A DNA stretch of 64,000 nucleotides. Source: Clostridiaceae bacterium AF10-41. Lineage in GTDB: Bacteria; Bacillota; Clostridia; Clostridiales; Clostridiaceae. The position numbers and the translations under genes are program-made. The first letter of the stretch is position 1. Each line of letters opens with the position of its first letter. Location of the stretch: NCBI GenBank assembly GCA_027686065.1, contig JAQCTH010000005.1, positions 30,919 to 94,918 of the forward strand, in the 5' to 3' direction. A model generated the notes under the pieces. That model was not told where the DNA came from. It saw only the letters and a list, made by a program, of their open reading frames with translations, and did no database searches. Shown piece by piece: positions 19,369 through 29,901 of the stretch.

Positions 19369-19683
19369 TTATCTACGCTTAATTTCTTTATTCATTTCTA
19401 TTAATTCTATAGCTATGTCTTTAATAGTCTCTGCACTCATAAGTTGATCCTCTGCATGCATTATTATAAGAGAAAATTCTAACTTTTTCCCACTAGCTTC
19501 ATTTTGAATTAATCCAGAATGAGCATGATGTCCTTCTAGCAAAAATCCTTTAGCTTCCTCTATTTTCTTTTCTGCTTCTTCAAAATTTCCATTTCTTGCT
19601 TCTCTAATTGCTTCAATTCCTAAAGATTTAGCCATTCCAACATTGCTTATTATTTCAAAAGCAACTAATTCTAGTTCATTCAT
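19369..19683 (-). CDS. PTS lactose/cellobiose-family enzyme IIA
   Basis: 104 residues, an all-helical IIA of the Lac family. It accepts phosphate from HPr and passes it to IIB. Seen: LVAFEIISNVGMAKSLGIEA at the N-terminus and GHHAHSGLIQ near residue 55 (a conserved His-containing element), then IMHAEDQLMSAET near 75, which holds the phosphorylated His. AAGGAGAATTTGG precedes the ATG. It is the last gene of the operon, 21 nt after IIB, while its IIC partner is the first gene about 9 kb upstream. Confidence 0.92.
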   Translation of the reverse strand: MNELELVAFEIISNVGMAKSLGIEAIREARNGNFEEAEKKIEEAKGFLLEGHHAHSGLIQNEASGKKLEFSLIIMHAEDQLMSAETIKDIAIELIEMNKEIKRR

Positions 19684-19704
19684 TCCAAATTCTCCTTATA
19701 TAAT

Positions 19705-20016
19705 TTATTTGTGGTCTTCTATTAATTGTAATGCACTTTCAAGAACTGCTTTTCCATTCATTGTTCCATATGCTCTAATATCTATTACTTCTACTGGGAT
19801 TCTTCCATTAACTAATGATTTAATTTCTGTCTTTTGAAATCTAACTTGTGGTCCAAGTAAAATAATATCTACTGTATCAATTACATTTCCACATTCTGAA
19901 AATGGTAATGCATTTATATTTACTTCTATTCCTTTGCTTTTAGCTGCCTCTTGCATTTTATTTACTAAAAGACTTGTTGACATTCCAGCTGAACATACTA
20001 ATAATATATTTTTCAT
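19705..20016 (-). CDS. PTS lactose/cellobiose-family enzyme IIB
   Basis: 103 residues. The phospho-acceptor Cys sits in the P-loop LLVCSAGMSTSLLV at residue 8, typical of CelA/LicB-type IIB. It takes phosphate from IIA and transfers it to the sugar moving through IIC. It lies between the GH1 gene and IIA in the operon, 58 nt after GH1. Confidence 0.93.
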   Translation of the reverse strand: MKNILLVCSAGMSTSLLVNKMQEAAKSKGIEVNINALPFSECGNVIDTVDIILLGPQVRFQKTEIKSLVNGRIPVEVIDIRAYGTMNGKAVLESALQLIEDHK

Positions 20017-20074
20017 TTCATAATCCTTCTTTCTATTTTAATTTATTTTTATATTTAAATAATTTACAAGTAAT

Positions 20075-21487
20075 TTATAAAATATCCCCATTAGATTCTA
20101 TAACCTTTTTATACCAATAAAATGATTTTTTCTTAGAACGTTTTAACGTTCCATTTCCATTATCATCTTTATCAACATAGATAAAACCATAACGTTTTGA
20201 CATTTCTCCTGTTGATGCTGCTACAAGGTCTATGCATCCCCAAGTGGTATATCCTAATAATTCTACTCCATCTTCAATTGCTTCATTCATTGCTAATATA
20301 TGTTGTCTTAAGTAATCAATTCTATAATCATCATTTATAGAACCATCTTCTTCTACATAATCCTTTGCTCCAAGTCCATTCTCAACAATGAACAAAGGTT
20401 TTTGGTATCTATCATATAATGAATTTAAAGTTATTCTCAATCCTAATGGATCTATTTGCCATCCCCATTCACTTTCTTTTAAATATGGGTTTTTAACAGA
20501 TTTAACTACATTACCATCTGAAATATTATGTTCTTTATTCGAACTTGCACATCGAGATGAATAATAACTAAAAGAAACAAAGTCTACTGGATATTTTTTT
20601 AGTATTTCCAAATCGCCTTCTTCTATTTTCAACTCAATATTTTTTTCTTTAAATACCCTTTTACTATAACTTGGATAATATCCTCTTGCCTGAACATCTA
20701 TAAACATTAAATTTTCTCTATCCTTATTCATAGCCATAAATACATCATTAGGATCACAACTATAAGGATAAAATTGTCCTCCAGCTAGCATGCATCCTAT
20801 CAAATTATCAGGATTTATCTCATGTGCTATTTTTGTAACCATTGCACTTGCAACTAATTCATGATGAGCTGCTTGATACTTTGATTGTTCTCTATTTTCT
20901 CCCTCTTCAAAAGCTAAACCAGCCCCTGAAAATGGTGAATGAAGTAGAATATTTATTTCATTAAATGTTAACCAATACTTAACAAGTCCATCAAATCTTT
21001 CAAAGCATATCTTTGCATAATTTACAAAGCATTCTATCATTTCTCTGCTTTTCCATGAGTTGTACTTTCTAACTAAAGACATTGGAACATCAAAATGACA
21101 AAGTGTAACTAAAGGTTCCATTCCATACTTTTTACATTCTTCAAACATACTTTTATAAAAATTAATTCCAGCTTCATTTATTTCTCCTTCACCATCTGGC
21201 AATATTCTTGCCCAAGAAATACTTGTTCTGAAGCATTTAAATCCCATCTCCGCCATAAGCTTTATATCTTCTTTGTAATTATGATAAAAATCTATAGCTT
21301 CATGACTTGGATAGTTTTCTCCTTCAATAAATTCCACTGGATACATATTACCTAGTTTAACAAACATTCTATTTTTTCCATGTGGAATCATATCTACATT
21401 AGTAAGTCCTTTTCCATCTTCTAAATAAGAGCCTTCAGCTTGATTTGCTGCTATTGCTCCTCCCCACAAAAAATTCTTTGGAAACAT
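20075..21487 (-). CDS. 6-phospho-beta-glucosidase, GH1
   Basis: 470 residues, (beta/alpha)8 glycoside hydrolase family 1. Seen: N-terminal [16 protein letters not shown], acid/base Glu in WLTFNEIN (about 175), nucleophile Glu in FIVENGLGA (about 370) and the C-terminal [20 protein letters not shown], whose Ser, Lys and Tyr match the phosphate pocket of 6-phospho-beta-glucosidases. It cleaves phosphorylated beta-glucosides delivered by the Lac-family PTS. The ATG at 21496 touches AGGAGA, so the ATG at 21487 is chosen. A second, divergent GH1 enzyme is in the same operon. Confidence 0.93.
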
Positions 21488-28397: not shown

Positions 28398-28488
28398 TTC
28401 TACAACCCCTTGCTAGTTATTTTACAATAACTATGATAACACAAACTAATATAATACTCATTCTTAAATCGAACATTTCATATTCTAA

Positions 28489-28526
28489 GATACAATCACC
28501 TAATTTTTTTATTAGGTGATTGTATC
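28489..28526 (-). promoter_or_regulatory. Intercistronic hairpin between PTS IIC and iclR
   Basis: A perfect 16-bp stem (28489-28504 with 28511-28526) around a six-T loop, in the 154-nt gap between the IIC stop and the iclR start. No T-run follows it in either direction. It therefore looks more like an RNA processing/stability or attenuation element within the operon mRNA than a full terminator. Confidence 0.6.
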
Positions 28527-28551
28527 CATTAATTTTATGTTTCTTTAATTA

Positions 28552-29901
28552 TTAAGCTAATTGCTTATCTGATTCTTTTTCCATCTCTTTTGCTAATTGC
28601 TTATTTGCTATCATTACAAAAGGAATATATATAAGAATTGAAATAGCAATACAAATTAATTGAGTGATAACAGATTTAATACTTCCGCCACTTGCTAACC
28701 ATGCACTTAAAATTGGTGGAGTTGTCCAAGGTATTGCATAAACTAATACATCAGCAAATCCTATTACCGTAAGTACATACGCTACTGTTCCTGTAATAAG
28801 TGGTGTAATAATAAATGGTATTGCCATAACAGGATTTAACATGATTGGTAGACCAAAAGTCATAGTTTCATTTATGTTGAAAATTCCTGGAGCAAATGAT
28901 AATTTTGCTATACCCTTATAATCTTCACGTTTACTAAATATAAATATTGCAATAATTAATCCGATTGTAACTCCTGAACCACCTATTGTCATATATACAT
29001 CCCAGAAAGACATATTAATTATATTTAATTCTTTAATATTAGTGATTCCTTGGTTAACTAAATCTGTATTAGCTAAAATAGCTGCATTTAGTAATGGCTC
29101 TCTAACTGGCTTTATTATTTGATTACCATGAATTCCGATAACCCAGAATAATTGAGATACTAACATCAGAATTAGAAGTCCAGGTAACCCTTGCATAACT
29201 GCTTCCAATGGTTTTTGTAACATAGTATAAATAATGTCATATAAAGTTAATCCAGTAACCTCTGCAACAATAAAGTTTATTGATGACATAATAATTATTG
29301 TAAACATAGAAGGGAATAAAACATTAAAAGATGTTGCAACATTTGCTGGTACAGAATCTGGCATCTTAATTTTTAACTTCCCTGAGTTAACAATAAATGA
29401 GAATATTTCTACAGACACTATTGCTATAATCATTCCTAAGAATAATCCTCTAGCAGCTGTATAATCTTTTCCTACCACATTTGCTATCTTAACAACACTA
29501 CCGTCTTGTAAATTAAAATTAATAAATGTAGGTATACATGCGATAAATGAACACATAGCTATAATTGCTGGCGCGTAATTTTTAATACCATTTTTCTTTC
29601 CTAATTCAAGACCTATTAATACTACCGCACCCATTGTAAAGAAGTTTAATGTTGCATAATTAGCAGCATTAAATATTGGAGCTAAATACTCTAACCAAGC
29701 AAAACCGTTTACTTTTGCAAGAGAAACTCCCGTTGTAGTTGTAGAAAGTAATACATTAGAAACAAGTGTACAAAATGCCCCCGTTATAATTACCGGCATC
29801 AATGCAGAAAATGCATTTTTTATGGCACTCATATGTTTTTGATTACTAATTTTGTTAGCAACCATCAGTAACTTTTCGGTTACTACTTCTGAAATATTCA
29901 T
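28552..29901 (-). CDS. PTS lactose/cellobiose-family enzyme IIC permease
   Basis: 449 residues with about ten membrane helices. Seen: KHMSAIKNAFSALMPVIITGAF near the N-terminus, LFWVIGIHGNQI (about 266) and APGIFNINETMTFGLPIMLNP (about 350), signatures of the Lac/Cel IIC family, where the ING/INE loop contacts sugar. It imports and phosphorylates a beta-linked disaccharide with IIB and IIA encoded at the far end of the operon. An in-frame ATG at 29952 lacks a ribosome binding site; the ATG at 29901 follows AAGGGGAG and is chosen. First gene of the operon. Confidence 0.94.
   Translation of the reverse strand: MNISEVVTEKLLMVANKISNQKHMSAIKNAFSALMPVIITGAFCTLVSNVLLSTTTTGVSLAKVNGFAWLEYLAPIFNAANYATLNFFTMGAVVLIGLELGKKNGIKNYAPAIIAMCSFIACIPTFINFNLQDGSVVKIANVVGKDYTAARGLFLGMIIAIVSVEIFSFIVNSGKLKIKMPDSVPANVATSFNVLFPSMFTIIIMSSINFIVAEVTGLTLYDIIYTMLQKPLEAVMQGLPGLLILMLVSQLFWVIGIHGNQIIKPVREPLLNAAILANTDLVNQGITNIKELNIINMSFWDVYMTIGGSGVTIGLIIAIFIFSKREDYKGIAKLSFAPGIFNINETMTFGLPIMLNPVMAIPFIITPLITGTVAYVLTVIGFADVLVYAIPWTTPPILSAWLASGGSIKSVITQLICIAISILIYIPFVMIANKQLAKEMEKESDKQLA

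Follow-up and report, generated by a model that had tools for sequence, protein, structure and literature searches.

A clostridial gene block with a PTS, two GH1 enzymes and aldonate dehydratases, predicted to serve aldobionate utilisation

We analysed a 64,000-nucleotide stretch of contig JAQCTH010000005.1 from Clostridiaceae bacterium AF10-41 (the window; positions below count from its first letter), in which a minus-strand run of 11 consecutive genes, from 29901 down to 19369, probably constitutes an aldobionate utilisation operon. Its products would import glycosyl-aldonates through a phosphotransferase system (PTS), cleave them with a GH1 glycoside hydrolase that we call GH1b, and convert the released aldonates via 2-keto-3-deoxygluconate (KDG) and 2-keto-3-deoxy-6-phosphogluconate (KDPG) to pyruvate; we infer every substrate named here from family-level gene identities, linkages and residue conservation, which are what was observed. 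All 11 genes are open frames, in the order IIC, IclR, UxuA, GH1b, IlvD/EDD, an 89-aa hydrophobic protein, Eda, a PfkB-family kinase (KdgK in the comparisons below), a second GH1 enzyme (GH1a), IIB and IIA. From IclR to IIA, intergenic distances range from 1-base overlaps up to 58 bases, and IIC is split from IclR by 154 bases that include a perfect hairpin, so that a single operon for all genes is likely rather than certain.

In the proposed pathway, the Lac-family PTS (IIC, IIB and IIA) would import beta-glucosyl-aldonates and phosphorylate their sugar half. The resulting 6-phospho-glucosyl-gluconate or 6-phospho-glucosyl-mannonate would be split into glucose 6-phosphate and the free aldonate by GH1b, and perhaps by GH1a for other linkages; the step is given to GH1b because of the context of its clade, the motif at its phosphate site, and a pair of arginines that match aglycone-site positions. 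Gluconate would then be dehydrated to KDG by the IlvD/EDD enzyme and mannonate by UxuA, both being observed families with predicted substrates, and the PfkB kinase and Eda would, judging from family and context, carry KDG through KDPG to pyruvate and glyceraldehyde 3-phosphate. The IclR protein may repress the IIC promoter at a TYCG-N6-CGRA palindrome, with KDG or an aldonate as its probable effector. An earlier note, made from the sequence alone, had described the same gene content and order, with IIC first and IIB-IIA last, and had proposed that a phosphorylated glycosyl-aldonate is imported, cleaved by one of the GH1 enzymes, and dehydrated to KDG. The gene order holds, and the core of the proposal is backed here by GntP linkage, by the pairing of GH1b with IlvD or UxuA, and by the arginine pair; its further suggestion that an adjacent GH16 glucanase could supply the oligosaccharides finds no support.

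The IlvD/EDD-family enzyme (23426..25141, minus strand) is predicted to be a gluconate dehydratase that forms KDG, on the strength of family profiles, gene linkage, and what others have predicted for similar genes. It stays under the curated IlvD cut-offs (538.5 vs 644 and 524.5 vs 618.15 bits) and far under the NCBIfam 6-phosphogluconate dehydratase cut-off. Among the full-length matches listed from 195 relatives' genomes, its own clade lies at 58–69% identity, an intermediate group at 48–51%, and dihydroxy-acid-dehydratase-like proteins at 39–45%, and named genomes reach 80%. We then compared the 6-kb surroundings of 119 clade genes, with some genomes entered twice (as an unnamed handle and a named record) and some loci shortened by contig ends, to those of 21 dihydroxy-acid-dehydratase-like controls, with 8 genes at 46–56% identity in neither group. 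A GntP gluconate-type permease, always on the same strand, was found near 34 of the 119, Eda or KdgK near 30, a GH1 gene near 16, and a Lac-type PTS gene near 10, against 0/21 controls in each case, and UxuA near 7/119 and 1/21. The GntP of locus L032 passes the NCBIfam gluconate transporter cut-off (782 vs 744), and the Eubacterium eligens record (L160) names a gluconate:H+ symporter next to the dehydratase. At L160, a gene annotated as HPr-family (7734-7967; Pfam score 21.4, just under the cut-off of 23) sits between GntP and the dehydratase. The window gene itself, with UxuA, Eda and the PfkB kinase close by, has a neighbourhood unlike that of the control group. Dihydroxy-acid dehydratase, the identity that had been named as fatal to the proposal, is thus disfavoured by the sub-cut-off scores and the gluconate-type neighbourhood.

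Similar genes have been described in other anaerobes (papers are cited by PubMed Central (PMC) number, in each case for the excerpts used). In Clostridium acetobutylicum, the IlvD-type gene CA_C3604, which has a symporter next to it, has been predicted to encode a gluconate dehydratase, and 13C-gluconate labelling pointed to an Entner-Doudoroff route (PMC4179846). Clusters of gluconate dehydratase (GAD), KdgK and Eda have been described in Blautia and Enterocloster (PMC11424487), and all of these published genes may belong to the window clade. The Ilv/ED family also includes pentonate dehydratases (PMC5770437), and an enzyme acting on xylonate or arabinonate would make this an operon for pentose-aldonate glycosides; we consider this very improbable, as the xylonate (328 vs 808) and arabinonate (327 vs 882) dehydratase cut-offs are far from reached and the recurring neighbours of the clade are gluconate-type permeases, KdgK and Eda. 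For the second aldonate, UxuA (26589..27626, minus strand; PDB 3ban family) is assigned as D-mannonate dehydratase, which forms KDG from mannonate. This identity, as first noted, is borne out by two curated models (NF003027, 480 bits against a cut-off of 191, and a second at 403 vs 199.6 bits), and no second IlvD or UxuA was detected in the window by tblastn.

GH1b (25153..26589, minus strand; PF00232, 320 bits), the predicted 6-phospho-beta-glycosyl-aldonate hydrolase, recurs beside these dehydratases. In the same 195 genomes, GH1b at ≥57% identity gave 9 rows, 8 of them full-length and 1 partial. It adjoins an IlvD-clade gene in 7 of the 8 full-length rows (G067, G027, G038, G051, G094, G019 and G058; start-to-start distances of 1.5 to 6.3 kb), and the partial row (G011, L153) lies near an IlvD gene broken into two frames, which brings the count to 8/9. 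The exception is a full-length GH1b away from IlvD (G104, L151), and a GH1b at 51% identity (G131, L152) has neither dehydratase nearby. By comparison, none of 71 GH1 rows at 38–47% identity had a clade IlvD or a UxuA less than 15 kb away (the nearest at 75 kb), based on same-contig distances and with rows on other contigs counted as not near. GH1b also stands by UxuA without IlvD, in L163 (IIC-UxuA-GH1b-IIB-IIA), L177 and L179 (GH1b-UxuA-ROK), and L186. Further searches found GH1b in 3/299, 3/299, 1/23 and 22/146 genomes, some of them shared, for a total of 35 genomes, of which 13 have at least one of the two dehydratases within 6 kb (IlvD in 9 genomes and UxuA in 5).

Overall, the GH1b clade extends across Clostridia, Coprobacillaceae and Erysipelotrichaceae, Bacillaceae-type bacteria, Collinsella, Klebsiella and Pantoea. 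For the Bacillaceae-type family, 12 of the 15 gene lists read (of 22) place GH1b among genes for an ABC importer, a ROK kinase and a two-component system, as judged by Pfam for some proteins of L171, L174, L177 and L183 and by eye for others. In Klebsiella and Pantoea, an IIC-GH1b pair stands by an FCD/GntR-type regulator, with no dehydratase within the stretch shown. On a 47-row GH1b tree, in which L097, L152 and L151 form long branches, the four context labels are clustered, requiring 8 changes vs 15.1 in shuffles; these 8 changes indicate that the pairings arose more than once.

In GH1b, the catalytic glutamates E170 (acid/base, in NEP) and E371 (nucleophile, in ENG) are invariant in 22 rows. 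Two arginines, R177 and R184, are likewise invariant, in 39/39 clade rows and in 120/120 of the best 120 of 3600 homologues (overlapping samples), and six GH1 enzymes at 42% identity carry Ala/Gly and His at these positions. The Collinsella protein of L097 (53% identity) has both arginines, and the protein of L152 (51%) has neither. They lie at +7 and +14 from E170, and in TnBgl1A, with proton donor E164, residues 171 and 178 are in the +1 subsite, residue 171 being given as N in one place and as V in another (PMC3056771). The phosphate-site motif S428...K434-N435-R436-Y437 is present in 119/120 homologues (one gap) and is the same as in SPy1599. The nearest solved enzymes, SPy1599 (4b3k, 5foo) and LpBgl (5naq), are 6-phospho-beta-glucosidases, the activity of SPy1599 being taken from PDB titles and its citation in PMC10360150, and GH1b falls below the cut-off of the NCBIfam 6-phospho-beta-glucosidase models (178 vs 624 bits). 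After the motif Ser, the GH1b clade has a Pro in place of the Trp of galacto-type enzymes; in Gan1D, glucosides are favoured when the residue at this position is changed from Trp to Ala or Met (PMC10360150).

The arginine pair, along with the genomic context, leads us to predict that GH1b is a 6-phospho-glycosyl-aldonate hydrolase. A broader proposal is that this clade represents a new GH1 specificity, in which the two invariant arginines would hold the aldonate carboxylate, the phosphorylated substrate would be provided by a Lac PTS or by an ABC importer with a BglK-like kinase, and separate dehydratases would partner the enzyme for gluconate and for mannonate; this we hold as a tentative idea, falling a little short of probable. 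An arginine pair would suit any anionic aglycone, and the folds closest to GH1b include a GH1 enzyme for pyruvylated galactosides (5yhs, 5yif), both of which fit a glycoside with another acidic aglycone (such as a uronate or a unit with a phosphoryl or pyruvyl group), the dehydratases then serving unrelated free aldonates. We judge such a substrate quite improbable, as the window has no match to the uronate isomerase or reductase query and the recurring partners, where seen, are C6-aldonate dehydratases. Specifically, tblastn with one query protein each, from relatives, gave no window match for UxaC, UxuB-like, GntP or ROK proteins, in agreement with the initial reading that uronate isomerase and mannonate reductase are missing, and a uronate pathway was rejected on the UxaC and UxuB-like results.

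Next, we compared the whole block with 120 loci by tblastn. Conserved co-occurrence of these genes, which the earlier note had put forward as a check, was seen both in gene order and in the recurring IlvD/UxuA-GH1b pairings described above. The order IIC-IclR-UxuA-GH1b-IlvD-small protein-Eda-KdgK-GH1a is repeated in Candidatus Stoquefichus massiliensis (L072; 80% identity to the window for IIC, 76% for UxuA, 81% for GH1b, 80% for IlvD and 83% for GH1a), where tblastn gave no match for IIB or IIA. Longibaculum muris (L071) has nearly the same order, with the small protein moved and a second IclR and IIB inside. The gene order shared by L072 and L071 is beyond chance. Partial versions are seen in metagenome-assembled genomes of Thomasclavelia (L136; IclR-UxuA-IlvD-Eda-KdgK, without GH1b) and Massilimicrobiota (L091; IlvD-small protein-Eda-KdgK-GH1a), as well as in L073, and L042 holds a shuffled set (IIA-Eda-KdgK-IlvD-IIC-UxuA-GH1b-IIB). 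YdjC-family (ChbG-type) genes also occur near several clusters (Pfam; L045 6666-7391, L071 16213-16992, L072 17322-18065 and L091 7033-7773); the chitobiose reading that they prompted was not adopted, and they are kept as an observation only.

A near relative (L164; genome G059, G059:C99, 9792-13807) has both flanks syntenic with the window and shared operon stretches ~85–87% identical to it. Just four genes of the block are present there (IIC, IclR, the small protein and GH1a), and UxuA, GH1b, IlvD, Eda, KdgK, IIB and IIA are absent; relative to the window version, the same site is missing two internal blocks as well as IIB-IIA. The same genome carries IlvD-Eda-KdgK at another locus (L031). 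Because the full order is common to L072 and the window, loss in the L164 lineage is the simpler reading, and a gain in the window lineage the less simple one. This locus, with IIC-IclR-small protein-GH1a alone, fits another explanation of the block, in which an ordinary beta-glucoside (cellobiose-type) PTS operon took in a separate gluconate/mannonate-to-KDG module, with GH1 enzymes inactive on aldonate glycosides and control as the only thing shared. GH1a, an ordinary BglA-type enzyme, and the 22/35 GH1b-clade genomes without a nearby dehydratase fit it too, but the pairing of GH1b with IlvD, UxuA or both, across gene orders and transporters, and the invariant arginine pair would be left unexplained, and we regard this explanation as unlikely.

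The suggestion that one of the GH1 enzymes cleaves the imported glycoside can be refined to GH1b, since GH1a stands in L164 without the aldonate genes. GH1a (20075..21496, minus strand) is a BglA-type 6-phospho-beta-glucosidase (NF007356, 878 bits against a cut-off of 623; PDB 6wgd, 2xhy). As an aldonate enzyme it was rejected for its weak association with IlvD, and it may have a broader linkage range or act on plain disaccharides. Two GH1a relatives (L061 and L062) lie next to a PTS EIIBC whose family differs from that of the window PTS (for L061, Pfam PTS_EIIC/PTS_EIIB).

Several observations weigh against an aldobionate operon or narrow what it can claim. Among the matches listed, IlvD adjoins only 2 of the 10 GH1a relatives at 75–76% identity (G030 and G032, at L061 and L062), and the relative at 93% (L164) stands without it. 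The GH1b genomes with neither dehydratase within 6 kb include 19/22 of one Bacillaceae-type family, and because of these 22/35 genomes the specificity of the whole clade can only be presumed. In the ABC-type loci, the best NCBIfam match of the ROK protein is the beta-glucoside kinase BglK (two proteins, 196 and 201 bits), far below the model cut-off of 550. An opposite-strand regulator gene lies between IlvD and the PTS-GH1b genes in L032, L041 and L070, and the Collinsella locus (L097) has its IlvD group and PTS-GH1b group on opposite strands, so that nearness does not always mean one operon. By genome, an opposite-strand regulator gene lies between IlvD and GH1b in G027, G038 and G067, and in G027 a GntP gene follows IlvD. 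The PfkB-family kinase (21501..22499, minus strand; PF00294, 117 bits), predicted to be a KDG kinase from its family and context, is under all curated KDG-kinase cut-offs (211.8 vs 440, 126.8 vs 400 and 69.5 vs 400 bits). R177 and R184 are placed in the +1 subsite by their offset to TnBgl1A and by a downstream Pro shared by GH1b and GH1 enzymes, which we take to support the arginine alignment, and the AlphaFold2 model of GH1b does not place the arginine loop (residues 178-186 at a predicted local distance difference test (pLDDT) score <50). Finally, the joint handling of two epimeric aldonates is left unexplained.

The other genes of the block are as follows. All three PTS components pass their lactose/cellobiose-family cut-offs: EIIC (28552..29901, minus strand; TIGR00410, 340 bits against 236), with an ATG start and a possible longer TTG start at 29952, EIIB (19705..20016, minus strand; PF02302), and EIIA (19369..19683, minus strand; PF02255). 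The Eda-type KDPG aldolase (22500..23144, minus strand) scores 327 bits against a cut-off of 238 (NF005119), and the IclR-family regulator (27639..28397, minus strand) has weak NCBIfam matches, with KdgR second among them (118 bits, cut-off 275). The 89-aa hydrophobic protein (23157..23426, minus strand) is without a Pfam or NCBIfam match, and a search of 5.8 billion proteins returned 7, including itself. It has a conserved PYALY.IW stretch and adjoins these genes in the window, L071, L072, L091 and L164.

Upstream of IIC, we found a promoter-like site (TTGACA-18-TAAACT; 29957..29986, minus strand) that is a consensus match only, such sites being no commoner in the window than in shuffles; by eye, it is in the same place in L164. 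Between it and the IIC start lies the 14-bp palindrome TYCG-N6-CGRA (29917..29930, minus strand; pattern match), a candidate operator for the IclR protein. This is the sole exact match in 64 kb (0.09 expected, at least one match in 8/100 shuffles). Single matches were also found upstream of IIC in L164 and L071 and upstream of IclR in L136, and there was no exact match in L072, L073 or L091. The hairpin between IIC and IclR (28489..28526, minus strand; fold z -8.9) is listed as terminator-like on the plus strand. By eye, L164, L071 and L072 have hairpin-like repeats in the corresponding position, so that the dosing of IIC may be separate from that of the other genes.

Beside the block, the window encodes a large GH16 protein (15039-18290) with four CBM_4_9 stretches (Pfam), a linker in which ENPG is repeated, and an LPDTG motif at the C-terminus, presumably a sortase anchor. 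This is the glucanase to which the earlier note had given a possible supplying role. We left it out of the system because a query of its first 330 residues, at a coverage of at least 40%, had no match near 153 comparison loci (120 + 10 + 23). Elsewhere in the window, 58835-58936 is a purine riboswitch aptamer (Rfam RF00167, 71.8 bits).

If the predicted function is correct, the operon would tie an aldobionate nutrient to the gluconate dehydratase pathway of gut commensals (PMC11424487), provide a sequence signature for spotting aldobionate users in genomes, and suggest a mannonate-containing disaccharide as a natural substrate. If the specificity of GH1b is indeed new, aldobionates, glucosyl-mannonate included, would be an overlooked nutrient class. 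Lignocellulose breakdown yields cellobionic acid as a minor yet significant product (PMC4403981). We suggest that oxidised glucomannan may be a source of mannonate ends. Among the papers listed by our searches of the open-licence PMC literature, no title or abstract describes an operon of this kind, and little concerns aldobionate use by anaerobes.

The closest known parallel in function is Escherichia coli, in which cellobionate is believed to be phosphorylated on import, with a phospho-beta-glucosidase then releasing glucose 6-phosphate and gluconate (PMC4403981), as proposed here for the window. Cleavage of phosphorylated cellobionate by AscB is that paper's hypothesis, backed by an ascB knock-out and not in vitro; the gluconate is routed there into the pentose phosphate or Entner-Doudoroff pathway, and no operon-borne dehydratase is named in the excerpts (PMC4403981). 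In contrast, the window and its relatives co-encode one or two dehydratases with the kinase and Eda, and GH1b belongs to a different GH1 clade. The downstream route, from gluconate through KDG and KDPG to pyruvate, resembles the GAD pathway of clostridia and gut commensals (PMC4179846, PMC11424487), with the difference that free gluconate is taken up there by a transporter, whereas the aldonate would apparently enter here as a PTS-imported glycoside. Compared with SPy1599 and LpBgl, the GH1b clade has the Pro for Trp replacement and the R177/R184 pair. With GH1 beta-glucosidases of the TnBgl1A type, GH1b shares the family, the catalytic Glu pair and the subsite layout, but TnBgl1A, which the excerpts do not describe as phospho-specific, has N or V and H where GH1b carries its two aglycone-site arginines (PMC3056771). 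Taken together, the pieces are already known, and what looks new, as far as our searches reach, is their joining in one block, a GH1 clade (GH1b) marked by an arginine pair, and the partnership with UxuA.

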